Positions 29,866-50,323 of a stretch of DNA of 50,323 nucleotides are shown piece after piece (the stretch's first letter is position 1; every line of letters starts with the position of its first letter). This DNA comes from Patescibacteria group bacterium (GTDB lineage: Bacteria; Patescibacteriota; Patescibacteriia; UBA9570; JAHJKD01). The stretch is taken from the NCBI GenBank assembly GCA_018822435.1, contig JAHJKD010000025.1:1-50323 (forward strand), read 5' to 3'. The notes under the pieces were generated by a model. The model had not been told where the DNA came from, did not search any database, and saw nothing but the letters and a program-made list of their open reading frames with translations. Both the position numbers and the translations under genes were made by a program.

Positions 29866-30111
29866 ATGGAAAAAACTATATCTATCAAAGAGTTGCGCAC
29901 AAATATGCCCGCTATTAGGACCGGTTTAGAAAAAGGTATTACTTATACAATAATTTATCGATCTAGGCCAATTGGTAAATTGACTCCTTTGGAGGAAAAT
30001 TGGAAGGACAATAAAGATTTTATTAAATTATTTGCGAATCCTCCCAAAGAGCTATTAATCAAAAGTAAGAAATCAGCAGTAGAACTTGTTCGGGAGGAAA
30101 GAGCGGAATGA
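29866..30111 (+). CDS. Phd/YefM-type antitoxin
   Basis: 81 residues. The N-terminus ISIKELRTNMPAIRTGLEKGITYTIIYRSRPIGKLTPL matches the Phd/YefM DNA-binding fold (start, helix, then the R-x-x-P-x-G-x-L strand). The C-terminal half is flexible and charged, as expected for the toxin-neutralising tail. The stop overlaps the toxin start by 4 nt (ATGA). Autoregulation through the palindrome upstream is likely. Confidence 0.82.
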   Translation: MEKTISIKELRTNMPAIRTGLEKGITYTIIYRSRPIGKLTPLEENWKDNKDFIKLFANPPKELLIKSKKSAVELVREERAE

Positions 30112-30548
30112 AATTTAATATTAGTAATTTAGTTGTTGTCGATTCTTCAGTTTTCATATCAGCATGCGTGAAAGCGGAAAAGAATCAACAAATTTCTTGG
30201 GAATTTTTTAGAAATTTGGAAGAGAATGATATATATATTTTAATGCCCATAAATATTTTTTTTGAGATTTTAAACACTTTATTTAAATTAGGAGTTGATA
30301 ATAGAGATGTAAAAAAATTAATTGGTAAGGGCCCAATTTCGGGCATGTTGCCTTTAAATGAAGATTTTTTAGAACATATCTGGGTTCATTATCAAAAATT
30401 TGGAAAATTAAAAACAGCTGACAAGATTTTAGCCGTAACTAGCTATTATACAGAATCCCAATTAATTACTTGGGATCAGCAATTATTAAACCAAACCAGG
30501 GACTTGTGTGATTCTATGTCTCCGCGGGAATTTATTAAGAAAAAATAA
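30108..30548 (+). CDS. PIN-domain toxin (VapC-like ribonuclease)
   Basis: 146 residues. The four PIN acidic positions are visible: D12 (VVDSSVF), E53 (FFEIL), D105 (TADKILAV) and D123 (LITWDQQLL). These bind metal in VapC RNases that cleave tRNA or other RNA. The set is complete, so the toxin is probably active. It converges with the repeat-protein gene on the other strand, with 2 nt between the stops and no terminator seen. Confidence 0.85.
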   Translation: MKFNISNLVVVDSSVFISACVKAEKNQQISWEFFRNLEENDIYILMPINIFFEILNTLFKLGVDNRDVKKLIGKGPISGMLPLNEDFLEHIWVHYQKFGKLKTADKILAVTSYYTESQLITWDQQLLNQTRDLCDSMSPREFIKKK

Positions 30549-30550
30549 AT

Positions 30551-32653
30551 TTATTTCTCCAAGTTTTCTTTAATTTTGGCGACTAATTCGGGAGAGTAAT
30601 GCTCTCTCATTTGTCTGCTTTCGATTTGATATTTATGAAACCATTCTGGATGTTGACTTTTATATTTATAAGCATATTTTTTTAACGTGGTTGAGCTTAC
30701 TGGTAATTCTCTGCTTAATTCTCTAGCGGTCATCCATCCATCAGGAGGTGAAATACGTTTTTCCATGGCCTTTCTAATTTTTGAAACTAATTCTGGACTA
30801 TAGAAAAGTTCTTTTTTTTTGTATTCAAGCCGAAATTTTTTCTGCCATTCAGGATTTTGATCAAGGAATTCTTTTGCGATCCGGGAAATAGTCGTTCTAG
30901 TAGTGTTATATTCTTGCACCAGTACTTCACGTGCAATCCATCCCTCAGGAACTGCTCTTGCCTCAAGAATCATTTCTTCAAGTTTTTTGGCTAATTTGGG
31001 GGAAATATAATCAGCTTCCTGTCCATGCAGTTTGAATTTACCTATTTCCTCCTCATATTCCAATTTTAATGAATCCATATATTTATTAATTAGAAACGAG
31101 CTTGTATTGAATTTTTCAATAAGAGAATTAAGCGTAATCCAATTCTCTGGAGGCATTTCGTAGCTTTTTAAATCTTTTTGGATGTGATTGATAAGTTCAG
31201 GTGAATAGTACGTATACCCCCCATATTGCCGGTGCCAGCCAAGATGTTCTTTTAGGTATTTTTTTGCAATCGGATCAGTAATTTTTCTGGATCTTCCAAA
31301 TTTTTTTGCAACTGCTGTTCTGGAAAGCCATCCTGCAGGAATCTCTTGCCAATTTCCAATTTCATCTATAAGTATTTGTATTAATTTGGGTGCATAGTAG
31401 ATAGAGCGACCAATTTTCCTAAACCATTCAGGATGTTCTGCTCTATATTTTTCAGCCTTTTGTCTAGTTACACTATGATCTACGCCTAATGATTTAGATA
31501 ATTCATAATTATGTATCCAGCCCTCTTCAACATTTGATAAACCTTCCTTTTGTTCTTTTAATTTTGTGATTAACTCAGGAGCATAAAATTCAATATTTTT
31601 TCCACGGAAAAAGTAAAATTTAAACCAATCAGAATTACCCTCTCTTAATTTATCTGCCCATTTTTTTGCAGTTCGATGAGTGATGCCAATTTTTTCCGCT
31701 GTTTGACGATTAGTTAACCATCCTTGCGGAGGAGGTATTTCTTCTTCGATTTCCTTTATAATTAATTTTACTAATTCTGGTGCGAAGTGTTCTCTTGCTG
31801 GACCGGACTTCAATTTATAATTTTTAAACCATTCCGGATGATCAGTGCGATACTTATTGGTAATTCTTTCTATTCTAGAAGTCACGCTATCTAATAATTT
31901 AACAAGATTATAGTTAGTCTTCCAACCTTTAGGGGCATACTCATTGTTTACTCGTTGTTCGAACGGTTTTAAAATTAATTCCTCAATTTTTATTTTCCAT
32001 TCTTCAGAATCGCCCTGGAAAATTATTCGCGTAACAAGACCTGATTCTGTGAATTGTTTTAATTGATCTTTAGTGAGGTCAGAGTAATCCTCCCAAGAAT
32101 CTTCTGGCTCCAGATGATGAATTATAAATGTGGCATTGCCTTCTTCATTGTTCACAAAAACGATCTTATTAAAATCTAGAAGTAGAAATACTTGATAGCT
32201 TTCACCACGCATCATTTCTGGTGTATTAGTGCCGATGACGACATCATAATCTGTTTCAAGTTCAGATAATAATTCCATCAAATACTCTGTTCTAGGAATG
32301 AATTTTGGTTTTTCCCAGCCAGCGCCGGATCCAGTGATGATTTCTTTTTCATCTGGCGGGATAATAACTTCATTAATTTGCTCAATATGCTGGGGCAAGC
32401 GAATAGCCTCAAGTTTGCCTTGCTTTACTCTTTCTTTAATGTAGCTAGTAATATCAAAACGGATGCCGGGCACACCGCCTTTTTTCTTTGCTTCTGTTTG
32501 GACCAGATATTCTTCTGCTCCAAGGAGCTTGGCAATATCTGGTAGATGAAGCCCAGGATTGTTCTCTAGAACTTGAAGAAATTCAGCTTGGATTTGTTGT
32601 TGGAGCTTTTTACTAATGTTTGTATCTTGGTTTTCAATTTTTCTTTCAGGCAT
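30551..32653 (-). CDS. Protein with conserved N-terminal region and seven tandem winged-HTH-like repeats
   Basis: 700 residues. Residues 25-60 look like a first HTH (LENNPGLHLPDIAKLLGAEEYLVQTEAKKKGG). Residues 105-235 form an unrecognised globular region (GTNTPEMMRGESYQVF, FVNNEEGNATFIIHHLEP). From about 240 to the end there are seven repeats of about 66 residues. Each begins P-x-GW, then a helix-turn-helix of variable sequence, HPEWF-like, a short beta hairpin, and HYSPELV-x-x-I. This fits a winged HTH each time. It starts 1 nt after the upstream paralogue, so they share one mRNA. No catalytic motif is recognised. Modular nucleic-acid binding is inferred. Confidence 0.75.
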   Translation of the reverse strand: MPERKIENQDTNISKKLQQQIQAEFLQVLENNPGLHLPDIAKLLGAEEYLVQTEAKKKGGVPGIRFDITSYIKERVKQGKLEAIRLPQHIEQINEVIIPPDEKEIITGSGAGWEKPKFIPRTEYLMELLSELETDYDVVIGTNTPEMMRGESYQVFLLLDFNKIVFVNNEEGNATFIIHHLEPEDSWEDYSDLTKDQLKQFTESGLVTRIIFQGDSEEWKIKIEELILKPFEQRVNNEYAPKGWKTNYNLVKLLDSVTSRIERITNKYRTDHPEWFKNYKLKSGPAREHFAPELVKLIIKEIEEEIPPPQGWLTNRQTAEKIGITHRTAKKWADKLREGNSDWFKFYFFRGKNIEFYAPELITKLKEQKEGLSNVEEGWIHNYELSKSLGVDHSVTRQKAEKYRAEHPEWFRKIGRSIYYAPKLIQILIDEIGNWQEIPAGWLSRTAVAKKFGRSRKITDPIAKKYLKEHLGWHRQYGGYTYYSPELINHIQKDLKSYEMPPENWITLNSLIEKFNTSSFLINKYMDSLKLEYEEEIGKFKLHGQEADYISPKLAKKLEEMILEARAVPEGWIAREVLVQEYNTTRTTISRIAKEFLDQNPEWQKKFRLEYKKKELFYSPELVSKIRKAMEKRISPPDGWMTARELSRELPVSSTTLKKYAYKYKSQHPEWFHKYQIESRQMREHYSPELVAKIKENLEK

Positions 32654-32654
32654 G

Positions 32655-35021
32655 TTATTTTTCTAGGTCTTTTTTAATTTGGGCGATTAGTTCAGGGGAG
32701 TAGTGTTCAATATATTTTTTAGCCTTGTCTAAATAAAAATGAAACCATTCTGGATTTGTATCTCGGTAAGGAAGAGCCATTTTTTCAAATCTAAGATAAT
32801 ATATTCCTATGTCTTTAGCAGCTTGCATCTTACCTAGCCATCCTTCGGGAGCAGGTTTTCTTTTTTCAAGTTCATTTTCTATTAGTTTAGTCAATTCCGG
32901 CGAATAATGTTCAAAATAACCTGTTTTTCCATCCATCATTTTATACCACTCCGGATTAGTTTGTCTGAATGGGCTGGCAATTCTTTTTATAGTAGTTTCA
33001 GTAGAAGAGAATTTATCGGCAATCCATTTGTTGGTTTTCCATTCATCTGAAATTCGTTTCCTTTTTTCTATTTCGTCTTTAATTGCTTGGATTAATTCAG
33101 GCGAATAATATTCATACCATTCTGTTTTATAATACATTTTAAACCAATCAGGATGATCTTCTCGAAATAAATCGGCAATAGCTTGAGTGTATTCTTGACT
33201 TTTACCAATTTCTTTAGATAATGTTGTGTTTGCAATCCAATCTTCAGGAGGAGCTTCCCTTTTTTTTATTTCTTCTTTTAATAATTCAATTATTTCGGGT
33301 GAAAAATGAAGACGAATAGGGCCTGACTCTAACTTATAAAATTTGAACCAATCTGGATGATCAGATTTAAATTGATTAGCAAATCTAGAAGTTGTAGCAG
33401 GCGCAATGTTTAATTCCTTACCTAAAGCATGAGCTGTTTTCCAATTTGGCGGCGCATGTTCAATAGCAGAAATTTTTTCAGAAAAAATTTTAATAAGTTC
33501 AGGAGAAATATAAGTAGCAGTCCTCCCTGAAGATAATTTAATTTCTTTTATCCCCTCTGAATCTATTTCAAGCTGTTCATTAGATAATTTTTTAATAACT
33601 TTATAATCAACATCTAGAGATTTAGCTAAAGAAGAAACTGTAATCCAATTTTCAGGCGGTGAGTCTTGGTTTAGAAATACTTCTCTTATTTTTTCTGCAA
33701 GTTCTGGGGAATAGTAAGTCCCTAATTTTCTTTTTCCAATCAATGCATATCTATCATAAGTCGACTTGTCGTACCCTTCAATTTTTTTTGCTACATTTTC
33801 TATAGTCTTAGCATTGGTAATATTAAACTCCTTTAATAATTGACTTCTTGAAATCCAATTTTCAGGGATATAGCGACTGTCTTCGATTTTTTTTCTAATT
33901 AAATCACATAATTCAGGAGCCAGATATTCAATTTCTCCTGATCCAGAAAAAGCTATTTCAAACCAATCAGGATAATCTTTTCTGTATTGACTTATAAGAT
34001 AATTAATAATTTTGTTATTTGAACGGAGTTCCTTTCTTAGTTGGGCTGCTGAAAGCCAATTTTTTTTTGGCTCAACCCTTTCTTGAATTTTTGTTGATAT
34101 AATTTCAATTAGTTCTGGTGCAAGATATTCATATGAAGGTCGCCCTCTTTTTTTTGTTGTTATAAACCATTCTGGGTGTTTGTCTCTTTCTTGATTGGCT
34201 AATTTTTTTACAGTATCAAAATCAACACCTAGTTCTTCTTTAATCGCTCCAATTGTTTTCCAATTTTCATCAATTTTCTGAGATGATTCGTCTTCTTGCC
34301 TTTCAGAATCATCAGACTTAAATGGTTGATTTAATAAATCTAATATTCTTTTTTTCCAATCATCTACTTCCCCTCTGAAAATTGTTCTAGTAACAAGTCC
34401 GCTTTTTTCAAATTCCGGTAATTGTTCTTTGGTGAGATTAGAATAATCTTCCCAAGACTCATCCGGCTCTAGATGATGAACAATAAAAGTAGCATTGCCT
34501 TCCTCATTATTTATAAAGACTATTTTATTTAGATCTAACATAATAAAGACTTGATAGCTTTCACCACGCATCATTTCCGGAGTATTTGTTCCAATAACAA
34601 CATCATATTCTGTTTCTAGTTCAGATAATATTTCCATTAAGTATTCAGTTCGTGGTATGAACTTTGGTTTTTCCCAGCCAGCGCCTGTGCCAGTGATAAT
34701 TTCTATCTCATCCGGGGGGATAATTACTTTATCTGTTTGTTCAACATGTTTCGGCAGGTGGATGGTTTCAAGCTTCCCTTGTCTGACTCTTTCTTTTATA
34801 TATCCAGAAATATTAAAACGAAGGCCGGGTTGGCCGCCTTTTTTCTTGGCTTCTGTTTGAACTAAAAATTCTTCCGCCCCAAGAATTTGAGCAATTTGGG
34901 GGAGGTGAACGCCGGGATTGTTTTCTAAAACTTCAAGAATTTCAGCTTGGATTTCTTGTTGAAGTCGCTCTGTATGTTGCTTTTCGAATTTTTCCCCACT
35001 ATTTAGTGTTTTTTCAGGCAT
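32655..35021 (-). CDS. Protein with conserved N-terminal region and eight tandem winged-HTH-like repeats
   Basis: 788 residues, a paralogue of the downstream protein. By eye the N-terminal 240 residues are roughly three quarters identical (for example IITGTGAGWEKPKFIPRTEY and GTNTPEMMRGESYQVF), while the repeats are far more diverged. Eight units of about 66 residues follow, each W-x-T/S-x-x-x-L then a variable second helix, NPEWF/HPDWF, a hairpin, and YSPEL-x-x-x-I. Repeats 3 and 4 are the most degenerate in the HPEWF portion. The pattern, a constant head with fast-changing repeats, is what is seen in recognition proteins. It has a strong promoter and a palindrome just before ATG. Confidence 0.75.
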   Translation of the reverse strand: MPEKTLNSGEKFEKQHTERLQQEIQAEILEVLENNPGVHLPQIAQILGAEEFLVQTEAKKKGGQPGLRFNISGYIKERVRQGKLETIHLPKHVEQTDKVIIPPDEIEIITGTGAGWEKPKFIPRTEYLMEILSELETEYDVVIGTNTPEMMRGESYQVFIMLDLNKIVFINNEEGNATFIVHHLEPDESWEDYSNLTKEQLPEFEKSGLVTRTIFRGEVDDWKKRILDLLNQPFKSDDSERQEDESSQKIDENWKTIGAIKEELGVDFDTVKKLANQERDKHPEWFITTKKRGRPSYEYLAPELIEIISTKIQERVEPKKNWLSAAQLRKELRSNNKIINYLISQYRKDYPDWFEIAFSGSGEIEYLAPELCDLIRKKIEDSRYIPENWISRSQLLKEFNITNAKTIENVAKKIEGYDKSTYDRYALIGKRKLGTYYSPELAEKIREVFLNQDSPPENWITVSSLAKSLDVDYKVIKKLSNEQLEIDSEGIKEIKLSSGRTATYISPELIKIFSEKISAIEHAPPNWKTAHALGKELNIAPATTSRFANQFKSDHPDWFKFYKLESGPIRLHFSPEIIELLKEEIKKREAPPEDWIANTTLSKEIGKSQEYTQAIADLFREDHPDWFKMYYKTEWYEYYSPELIQAIKDEIEKRKRISDEWKTNKWIADKFSSTETTIKRIASPFRQTNPEWYKMMDGKTGYFEHYSPELTKLIENELEKRKPAPEGWLGKMQAAKDIGIYYLRFEKMALPYRDTNPEWFHFYLDKAKKYIEHYSPELIAQIKKDLEK

Positions 35022-35025
35022 ATTT

Positions 35026-35041
35026 TACCTAAAATTAGGTA
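35026..35041 (-). promoter_or_regulatory. Palindrome at the ribosome-binding region of the repeat-protein operon
   Basis: TACCTAA-AA-TTAGGTA lies 4 nt before the ATG at 35021. In RNA it would pair the AGGU purine stretch that could serve as ribosome binding site. It may be a DNA operator, an RNA switch of translation, or both. It resembles the palindrome at 89-101. Confidence 0.5.
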
Positions 35042-35053
35042 TTTTATACTTAT

Positions 35054-35082
35054 ATTCTATCATTTTTTTGGAGTTTTGTCAA
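35054..35082 (-). promoter_or_regulatory. Promoter of the repeat-protein operon
   Basis: On the minus strand TTGACA (35077-35082), a 17-bp spacer and TAGAAT (35054-35059) with a TGA extension, about 40 nt before the start. It is divergent from the folD promoter. Confidence 0.8.
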
Positions 35083-49569: not shown

Positions 49570-50323
49570 ATGTCAGAACGTAAACAAGAAGTAAGGAGGG
49601 CATTGCAAGATAAAGAGGTTTCTCTAAGAGGCATTACTAAAATAGACCATCAAGAAGTAATGGAAACATTTAGCCAGCCTATGGAATATCAAGTTGGTCA
49701 GCTTTTAAAAGCCTTGGGAGACTGGGCCAGGGACATGGGGCATGAGCCTGTGCCGGAAAAGGAAGTGGAGAAATGGATGCAGGGCCTAGGTGTTTCTTTT
49801 AGAAAATTCATCAAAGTCCATGAGCGCCTGGCAGCAAAAAAGAAAGATTTATCTTTTGACGATTTAGACATTGAAGAGCAAAAAGAATTTTTAGAGTCCG
49901 TGCTTCATGATTTCCAGGAAACTTACGGCTATCTGAAACATGCTGGAGCCGCAGAAAAAGCAACATCTTATAATGAGCCTAATCTATGGCTTGAGATTAT
50001 AACGGATCCAAACATTTCAGAAGATTATAAACTCGCCGGAATCCTGCGTCGTGCTGCAATTAGTAATCCAACTGATCCTAAAGCTTTTATCCAAAATGCA
50101 GAAAAAGCAGTTAAAACTTTACAAACAGACTCAGAGATATCAGATGAATATAAACTCCCCTGGATTCTGCGTCGTGCTGCAATTAGTAATCCAACTGATC
50201 CTAAAGCTTTTATCCAAAATGCAGAAAAAGCAGTTAATACAATGAAAGAAGATCCGGAAATAGCAGAAGATTATAAACTCCCCTGGATTCTGCGTCATGC
50301 CGCAATTCATAATCCAACTGATC
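49570..50323 (+). CDS. Partial repeat protein, runs off the window
   Basis: Open frame from ATG 49570 to the window end, at least 251 residues with no stop. Residues 1-145 are helical and charged (for example QPMEYQVGQLLKALGDWARD). From residue 146 a 41-residue unit repeats: D-P/S-x-I-S/A-E/D-x-YKL-x-x-ILRRAAISNPTDPKAFIQNAEKAV. Two full copies and part of a third are visible and they are almost identical at the DNA level. The repeats are helical and may form a solenoid. The family is unknown to me, and there is no signal peptide. Since purN ends 9 nt upstream, it may be co-transcribed. Confidence 0.75.
   Translation, partial: MSERKQEVRRALQDKEVSLRGITKIDHQEVMETFSQPMEYQVGQLLKALGDWARDMGHEPVPEKEVEKWMQGLGVSFRKFIKVHERLAAKKKDLSFDDLDIEEQKEFLESVLHDFQETYGYLKHAGAAEKATSYNEPNLWLEIITDPNISEDYKLAGILRRAAISNPTDPKAFIQNAEKAVKTLQTDSEISDEYKLPWILRRAAISNPTDPKAFIQNAEKAVNTMKEDPEIAEDYKLPWILRHAAIHNPTD
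50005..50323 (+). repeat. 123-bp tandem repeat inside a coding region
   Basis: Units at 50005-50127, 50128-50250 and 50251-50323 (cut by the window end). Period 123 nt equals 41 codons. The stretch from CGTCGTGCTGCAATT to the end of the AAAGCAGTTAA word is identical in the first two units. This points to recent duplication. Confidence 0.9.

Follow-up and report, generated by a model that had tools for sequence, protein, structure and literature searches.

The question raised by this locus is what is encoded by two adjacent genes, A and B, whose products combine an N-terminal region that is nearly constant between them (the head) with a long array of repeated units that is not. The reading that is favored here, with moderate confidence, is that the two proteins are paralogues in a patescibacterial family that has not been described before, whose members join a constant head to an exchangeable C-terminal array, and that this array would work as a modular reader of double-stranded DNA. 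The features of the locus are listed in Table 1, with positions in the window, which is the whole stretch of 50,323 nucleotides that was analyzed.

Table 1. Features of the A/B locus
Feature	Position	Strand	Basis
Protein A, 788 aa, head and 8 winged-helix units (predicted fold)	32655..35021	-	Open reading frame and unit matches
Head of protein A, residues 1-236	34314..35021	-	Homologues; twin head of protein B modelled with pLDDT 89
Eight-unit array of protein A (residues 253-788)	32658..34265	-	8 of the 15 genome-wide unit matches
Protein B, 700 aa, head and 7 winged-helix units (predicted fold)	30551..32653	-	Open reading frame; full-length AlphaFold2 model, pLDDT 86
Head of protein B, residues 1-235	31949..32653	-	74% identity to head of A; AlphaFold2
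Seven-unit array of protein B (residues 243-700), every unit predicted as α1-α2-wing-α3	30554..31927	-	Unit matches; AlphaFold2
Putative sigma-70-like promoter of the two-gene unit, TTGACA-17-TAGAAT	35054..35082	-	Consensus match only
Inverted repeat TACCTAA-AA-TTAGGTA, between promoter and start codon of A	35026..35041	.	Read from the sequence

Both genes lie on the minus strand. A preliminary description of the locus had claimed two paralogous genes 1 nt apart, with heads of about 240 residues that are about three quarters identical, followed by seven and eight repeat units of about 66 residues and preceded by a promoter. The gene and repeat structure is confirmed: the open reading frames of 788 and 700 residues are separated by one base, the heads share 73-74% identity over about 230 residues, and 8 units are found in protein A and 7 in protein B, with lengths of 62-70 residues. 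The promoter holds as a consensus match only. It agrees with the sigma-70 consensus at 11 of 12 positions and has a TG ahead of the -10 element (coding strand, 35082-35054), and the consensus search of the region returned 2 sites, with 1.5 expected. The inverted repeat downstream of it is possibly an operator or a leader hairpin, as inferred from sequence alone; it overlaps an AGG that may belong to a ribosome-binding site. The neighbors of the pair, as judged from the translations of their open reading frames, are folD-, purA- and purL-like genes and a PIN toxin pair. This VapBC-like pair (window 29866-30548, plus strand) is convergent with gene B, ends 2 bases away from it, and encodes an 81-residue protein with weak similarity to Phd/YefM (E 0.11) and a 146-residue PIN-domain protein (PF01850, E 4.3e-6). 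Apart from this pair, no phage, plasmid or defense gene adjoins A and B, and no tandem array of 9-11 bp direct repeats, which might be a target, is seen beside them.

The repetition in A and B is well beyond chance. The first search for units within the two proteins gave E-values per unit of 1e-14 to 1e-25, and the unit profile, when searched against the 1.32-Mb draft genome, gives exactly 15 matches, all within A and B (best E-values down to 1e-28, the weakest from 1e-6 to 1e-10). In the AlphaFold2 model of protein B, which was built from a 20-row alignment of relatives and has a mean pLDDT of 86, the succession helix 1, helix 2, β hairpin, helix 3 is present in all seven units. The pTM of this model is low (0.40), which is what a flexible string of beads would give and which indicates that the units are not fixed in a superhelix. 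The units are thus predicted to be winged helices of the MerR/Xis (excisionase) type, with the order α-α-β-β-α. The preliminary description of the units as winged helix-turn-helix-like therefore holds by prediction, as checked on the 700-residue protein, with the refinement that the HYSPEL motif is the start of the third helix, following the wing.

Comparison with known structures points in the same direction. In Foldseek searches of the PDB, the predicted units of protein B match MerR-like structures bound to DNA, and the matches of high probability are TraN (0.97-0.98), the RacA-DNA complex (0.99) and the BldC-DNA complex (0.84). When ranked by E-value, the list includes several proteins with winged helices in tandem, whose probabilities are low to middling. 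No match with an E-value below 0.001 is obtained with the full-length model, as is to be expected of small domains within a long query. At the level of sequence, the similarity is weak: the unit profile aligns with the MerR-like BldC by hhalign with an E-value of 5e-4 and a probability of 31%, Pfam gives weak helix-turn-helix matches at most for A and B, and the search of the unit profile against the PDB sequences gives noise only. Array B is basic (pI 9.4) and array A is not net basic, with 90 lysines and arginines vs 89 aspartates and glutamates (pI 7.6). Membership of the IS481, IS21 and GatB families (NCBIfam) and of the phrog_151 transposases was rejected, as the former matches concern short helix-turn-helix-like stretches, far below the curated cut-offs, and the latter also covers such a short stretch only.

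The head of A comprises a helical N-terminal part (residues 1-87) and a conserved acidic core (residues 88-236), having the motif GTNTPEMMRGESYQVF...NNEEGNATF. Its N-terminal 85 residues, when checked as a degenerate unit, are not picked up by the unit profile. The head of B is modelled by AlphaFold2 with a pLDDT of 89 and a pTM of 0.85, using an alignment with 23 diverse relatives, and the residues that are invariant or nearly so are P99, G110, R121, L129, G141, R149, Y153, T175, K195 and L198 (numbering of B). The core has a pI of 4.3-4.5, and because of this acidity it is unlikely that the head binds DNA by itself. No family above cut-off is found for the head in Pfam, NCBIfam, PHROGs or PADLOC, no match is found among the PDB sequences, and its model has no Foldseek match with an E-value below 0.001 in the PDB or among the viral structures of BFVD. 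Neither the profile libraries nor the structure searches tie the head or the array to any described family that has another function. A PD-(D/E)XK nuclease was considered for the head and is not supported, there being no conserved acid pair with a lysine and no nuclease motif among the conserved residues.

The head core is, however remotely, related to the C terminus of an unnamed family of 310-residue proteins, here called A7 (hhalign probability 96.9, E 1.9e-10, 92 columns), the common core being β-β-β-α-β-α. The invariant residues of the head and of A7 differ, which argues for remote kinship and not for membership. The A7 proteins are stand-alone plasmid proteins of 305-330 residues (L073-L080), in which the head-like core is C-terminal, and the hosts of these plasmids are Pseudomonadota, Bacillota, Deinococcota, Bacteroidota and Leptospira. 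Their neighbors include a pair of an AAA ATPase and a UvrD-type helicase (L075, L080), which we take to be Gabija-like by its layout, a BglII-type restriction system (L078), BrnTA (L077) and Fic (L079).

Proteins with this head form a family, of which about 32 members are found across Patescibacteria, in about 4% of the genomes, as scattered single genes among housekeeping genes. Whole-genome searches find head matches in 15 of 380 genomes throughout the phylum (14 without genome G182, in which the match, L046, is false; the match in G148, L047, belongs to the remote stand-alone family) and head proteins in 11 of 286 genomes of the class. The named relatives are from Moranbacteria, Doudnabacteria, Magasanikbacteria and Falkowbacteria (the latter on contig MFGA01000017.1). 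Isolated insertions are seen by eye in two cases, between murG-like and murC-like genes (L056) and between aspS-like and lon-like genes (L057, the Falkowbacteria gene). No partner gene recurs beside the relatives of the head. The single-protein scan of genome contigs and the scans of viral contigs gave no relatives, and tblastn against phages and plasmids gave no record with an A/B-type protein. L046, which is peptidase U32-like, and L024 and L025, which are phosphoglucomutase-like, were dropped as false or low-level matches.

A recognized array is present in 31 of the 32 head proteins that were examined, the exception being L069, and these arrays belong to at least seven classes that cannot be detected from one another by profile. 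The classes are the helix-turn-helix superfamily (the type found in the window together with c7 and c8), IYG, VRxDL, HA, INT_rpt, KWQ and one class in L067. The HA array (L027; PF03457, E 1.9e-14) and the INT_rpt array (L056; PF14882, E 6.6e-13) are above the Pfam cut-offs; that the c7 units are helix-turn-helix units is inferred from their sequences only, by summing Pfam matches over weak units and by alignment. The tree of the head cores requires at least eight changes of array type (when nine array labels are used at least nine changes are needed, the floor for nine labels being 8), the array types other than winged helix-turn-helix are nested among heads with winged helix-turn-helix arrays, and there are starred sister pairs with unlike arrays, namely winged helix-turn-helix with VRxDL and HA with c8. 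Two heads with unlike array types also occur within one genome, both in G009 (L003 and L071) and in a genome of Magasanikbacteria (L054 and L055). When these observations are taken together, arrays have been exchanged behind the head. The draft assemblies break in nearly identical arrays, so that the unit counts of some relatives are minima; in genome G405, L032 runs to the end of a contig and L031 starts at the end of another, and these are probably one gene split by the assembly.

Similar units occur also in other proteins. L018 (937-2589, minus strand; G076) has four such winged-helix units and, after them, a domain in which a PD-X-DxK motif (SPDLVFEMKDGRKIVIDIKSQ) is present; this suggests a natural fusion of array and nuclease, by motif only and without a family match. 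Two SF2 helicases of the restriction/RadD type have similar C-terminal winged-helix arrays, with seven units in L015 (1288-3981, minus strand) and weak units in L022 (217-2577, plus strand). A sigma-70 factor, L026 (130-2013, minus strand; G115), has one unit of the same family near its N terminus (E 8e-11). In L064 (1120-2951; G514), the frame that comes directly after an IYG-class head gene, and overlaps it, encodes three nearly identical winged-helix units but lacks a head of its own.

The location of the variation within the units is also established. When comparing A and B, the heads have a dN of 0.15 and a dS of 1.7, whereas the best-matched units are only 32-44% identical, with a dN of 0.43-0.73 and a dS that is similar and nearly saturated; the best partners are not colinear (B1 with A5, B2 with A8, B3 with A6). 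When 56 units of 13 proteins are aligned, variability is highest in column 44, at the tip of the wing, and in columns 16 and 17, at the start of helix 2. The latter two rank second and third of 62 (permutation p 0.0013), and for the 15 units of the window only the p-value is 0.017, which is nominal. The start of the recognition helix is therefore one of the regions in which the unit varies most, and it is less conserved than the scaffold, whereas the variability of column 21 is unremarkable (rank 22-23 of 62). The base-contacting residues are K26 and R30 in BldC (PMC5859096) and R23, N24 and Q28 together with H82 and R86 in TraN (PMC10877727). In the gapless profile alignment of the unit with BldC, K26 falls on column 17 and R30 on column 21; the TraN contacts were placed on columns 16, 17 and 21 by spacing, without direct alignment. 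Residues 21, 23, 24, 26, 27, 29-31, 33 and 46-48 of the BldC query sequence agree with the published description (PMC5859096).

The strongest evidence concerning the contact positions comes from relatives, and not from A and B. In genome G195, the neighboring head genes L030 and L020 have 12 and 5 nearly identical units, in which columns 16 and 17, directly following the residues GIS, read NS, RP, NY, SQ, KP, NP, SY, RR, TP and TE; the other differing sites are five wing residues and a single residue where helix 1 begins. When considering the contact set picked from BldC and TraN (columns 16, 17 and 21 and the wing), the pN/pS of these 17 units is 1.78 at the contact set and 0.48 in the remaining columns, with a p-value of 5e-5 by permutation of the entropies. 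The two sets hardly differ in synonymous change (0.17 at the contact set, 0.12 in the rest), and therefore there is no mutational hot spot. The corresponding values are 0.82 vs 0.40 for the six units of G405 (p 0.003) and 2.42 vs 1.40 for three units of G514 (p 0.05). The variation in G195 is, by inference and without binding data, the pattern of a modular reader, in which the specificity shifts and the scaffold is kept.

Two other readings of the arrays bear on these data. In the first, which we consider unlikely, the array would coat DNA in a cooperative manner and almost irrespective of sequence, while the head would polymerize or bridge, giving the proteins an architectural role like that of nucleoid-associated proteins. 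It is in favor of this reading that BldC, itself MerR-like, covers direct repeats whose number varies and distorts the DNA (PMC5859096), that array B is basic and that long arrays fit coating. However, variation focused on base-contact positions is not explained by indifferent binding, and neither the exchange of whole array classes nor the presence in only about 4% of genomes is predicted. In the second, also improbable, the array would be a surface for interaction with protein or RNA, and the variable residues would follow a partner that evolves rapidly, for instance a protein of a phage. UFL1 and RNA polymerase III subunits, which have winged helices in tandem, are among the top full-length Foldseek matches by E-value (at low to middling probability), winged helices sometimes serve protein contacts and array A is not net basic. 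Against this, the high-probability matches of single units are DNA-bound MerR-like domains, the variation sits on two DNA-facing elements, and the same head occurs also with HA, INT_rpt and other helix-turn-helix arrays.

In the proposed working of a modular reader of double-stranded DNA, the units would lie head to tail on the DNA, with the second helix in the major groove and the wing in the minor groove. Each unit would span about 9-10 bp, as do the BldC protomers (non-covalently) and the TraN domains (covalently), and one array might then read all or part of a long directional site that could reach some 60-80 bp. The specificity would reside in the wing and in the first residues of helix 2, and could be reset by duplication, shuffling and substitution of units, leaving the head unchanged. 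The head may supply a common output, by oligomerization or by recruitment of a partner. The likeliest role would be the recognition of foreign or mobile DNA, so as to silence or block it; this is favored by the patchy presence, the isolated insertions, the rapid turnover of the arrays and the remote kinship of the head with the A7 plasmid family, and it is the weakest, inferred, step of the proposal. The preliminary suggestion of a modular nucleic-acid reader is thereby supported, none of the three outcomes named with it as refuting (repeats without the predicted fold, a recognition helix as conserved as the scaffold, a profile match to a described family of other function) having been obtained, while the binding, a code of one unit per subsite and the action of the head remain inferred; that the head is an effector or oligomerization part is kept as an inference, its action being unproved.

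It is less likely, but more likely than coating or a protein or RNA surface, that A and B are ordinary multidomain transcription regulators, in which the head senses or oligomerizes and the array controls chromosomal genes, possibly including its own promoter. This is in agreement with the MerR-like fold and with the inverted repeat between the promoter and the start codon, and the single unit in the sigma-70 factor L026 hints at contact with the transcription apparatus. No conserved target or neighbor supports it, however, and the distribution among the relatives is patchy. Known bacterial regulators fall far short of seven DNA-binding domains per chain, a number that is reached or exceeded in A and B.

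A possible and more specific form of the modular-reader proposal, overlapping with it, is that these are defense or conflict proteins, in which phage or plasmid DNA would be recognized by the array, and the head would act by killing, by a block of replication or through a nuclease that it recruits. The patchy distribution, the single-gene insertions and the fast-changing arrays on a constant head fit this form, as do the remote kinship of the head core with A7, whose plasmid members adjoin the ATPase/helicase pair and the BglII-type restriction system, and the winged helix-turn-helix arrays that are fused to SF2 helicases in L015 and L022 and to a PD-(D/E)XK-like domain in L018. Against it, PADLOC gives no match, no phage or plasmid record has the protein, no consistent defense neighbor is seen in Patescibacteria, and the head is without a conserved nuclease motif.

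A bolder form of the modular-reader proposal, toward which our judgment is on balance slightly negative, is that these are sequence-programmable DNA readers natural to Patescibacteria, with one head serving at least seven unrelated kinds of array. As part of the same claim, the di-residue at the start of helix 2 together with the wing would set each subsite, and shuffling under diversifying selection would track foreign DNA, making these proteins a helix-turn-helix counterpart of TALEs. A TALE-like logic had been proposed in the preliminary description, and the analogy is now stronger than could be seen then, since at least seven repeat classes have turned out to be exchangeable behind this head.

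The likeness to TALEs, which is by analogy, with contacts inferred from BldC and TraN, consists of a long array with a conserved scaffold, variation at few positions including a di-residue, and a constant flank. The TALE repeats are helical hairpins of 33-35 residues with the di-residue at positions 12-13, whereas the units of A and B are predicted winged helices of 62-70 residues; there is no sequence similarity, and no code of one residue per base is known for A and B. Arrays of C2H2 zinc fingers (such as in PRDM9) also have independent domains in one chain, fast-evolving contacts and a constant partner domain, but these are metal-bound, 28-residue, eukaryotic domains, and in the A/B family it is the repeat class itself that is swapped behind one head.

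Among the structural relatives, BldC resembles A and B in the predicted fold of the unit and in the way in which direct repeats are proposed to be read, head to tail and at about 9 bp per unit. It is, however, a single domain of 68 residues forming non-covalent oligomers, whereas A and B fuse seven or eight different units behind a large head, and the residues at its contact positions are variable in the A/B-type units. TraN of pIP501 (PDB entries 4p0y, 4pm3 and 6G1T) has covalent tandem winged helices of the MerR/Xis type, each reading part of the site, and is matched over its full length by Foldseek, but it has two domains, no head, no repeat amplification and no hypervariable positions, and it belongs to a conjugation operon; A and B have seven or eight units, without conjugation-operon neighbors or a plasmid match. 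The MerR regulators have the winged helix (α1-α2-β1-β2-α3) that AlphaFold2 and Foldseek indicate for the units, but only one such DNA-binding domain, with a coiled-coil dimerization helix and a C-terminal effector, whereas the seven or eight units of A and B are C-terminal to an unrelated head. The HA (PF03457) and INT_rpt (PF14882) arrays are shared by relatives of the head, and the units of A and B belong to neither. The known partners of HA and INT_rpt are helicases or integrases, and the head family is not described there.

A search of the open-access literature (subscription papers and preprints being outside its scope) found no description of an architecture with a constant head and exchangeable arrays or of a long MerR-type array, and no described family was found in which one constant domain serves at least seven interchangeable array classes. 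The main text of a survey of DNA-binding tandem-repeat proteins (Hu et al. 2024, PMC11417379) does not mention helix-turn-helix arrays, and we know of no natural array of winged helices of the MerR type that is both long and hypervariable at its contact residues. The novelty lies in the scaffold and in the architecture of constant head and exchangeable array, the proposed function being analogous to that of TALEs and zinc fingers. If the reading of DNA is true, a new scaffold would join the few modular DNA-binding repeats available for genome engineering, and the small-genome Patescibacteria would gain a candidate means of recognizing foreign DNA. The 12 nearly identical units of L030 make a code directly testable.

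No structural RNA and no tRNA were found. At the end of the window (50017-50323) there is a tandem repeat of 123 bp, with 2.5 copies and 86% matches, which is truncated by the end of the window and which would equal a protein repeat of 41 residues.
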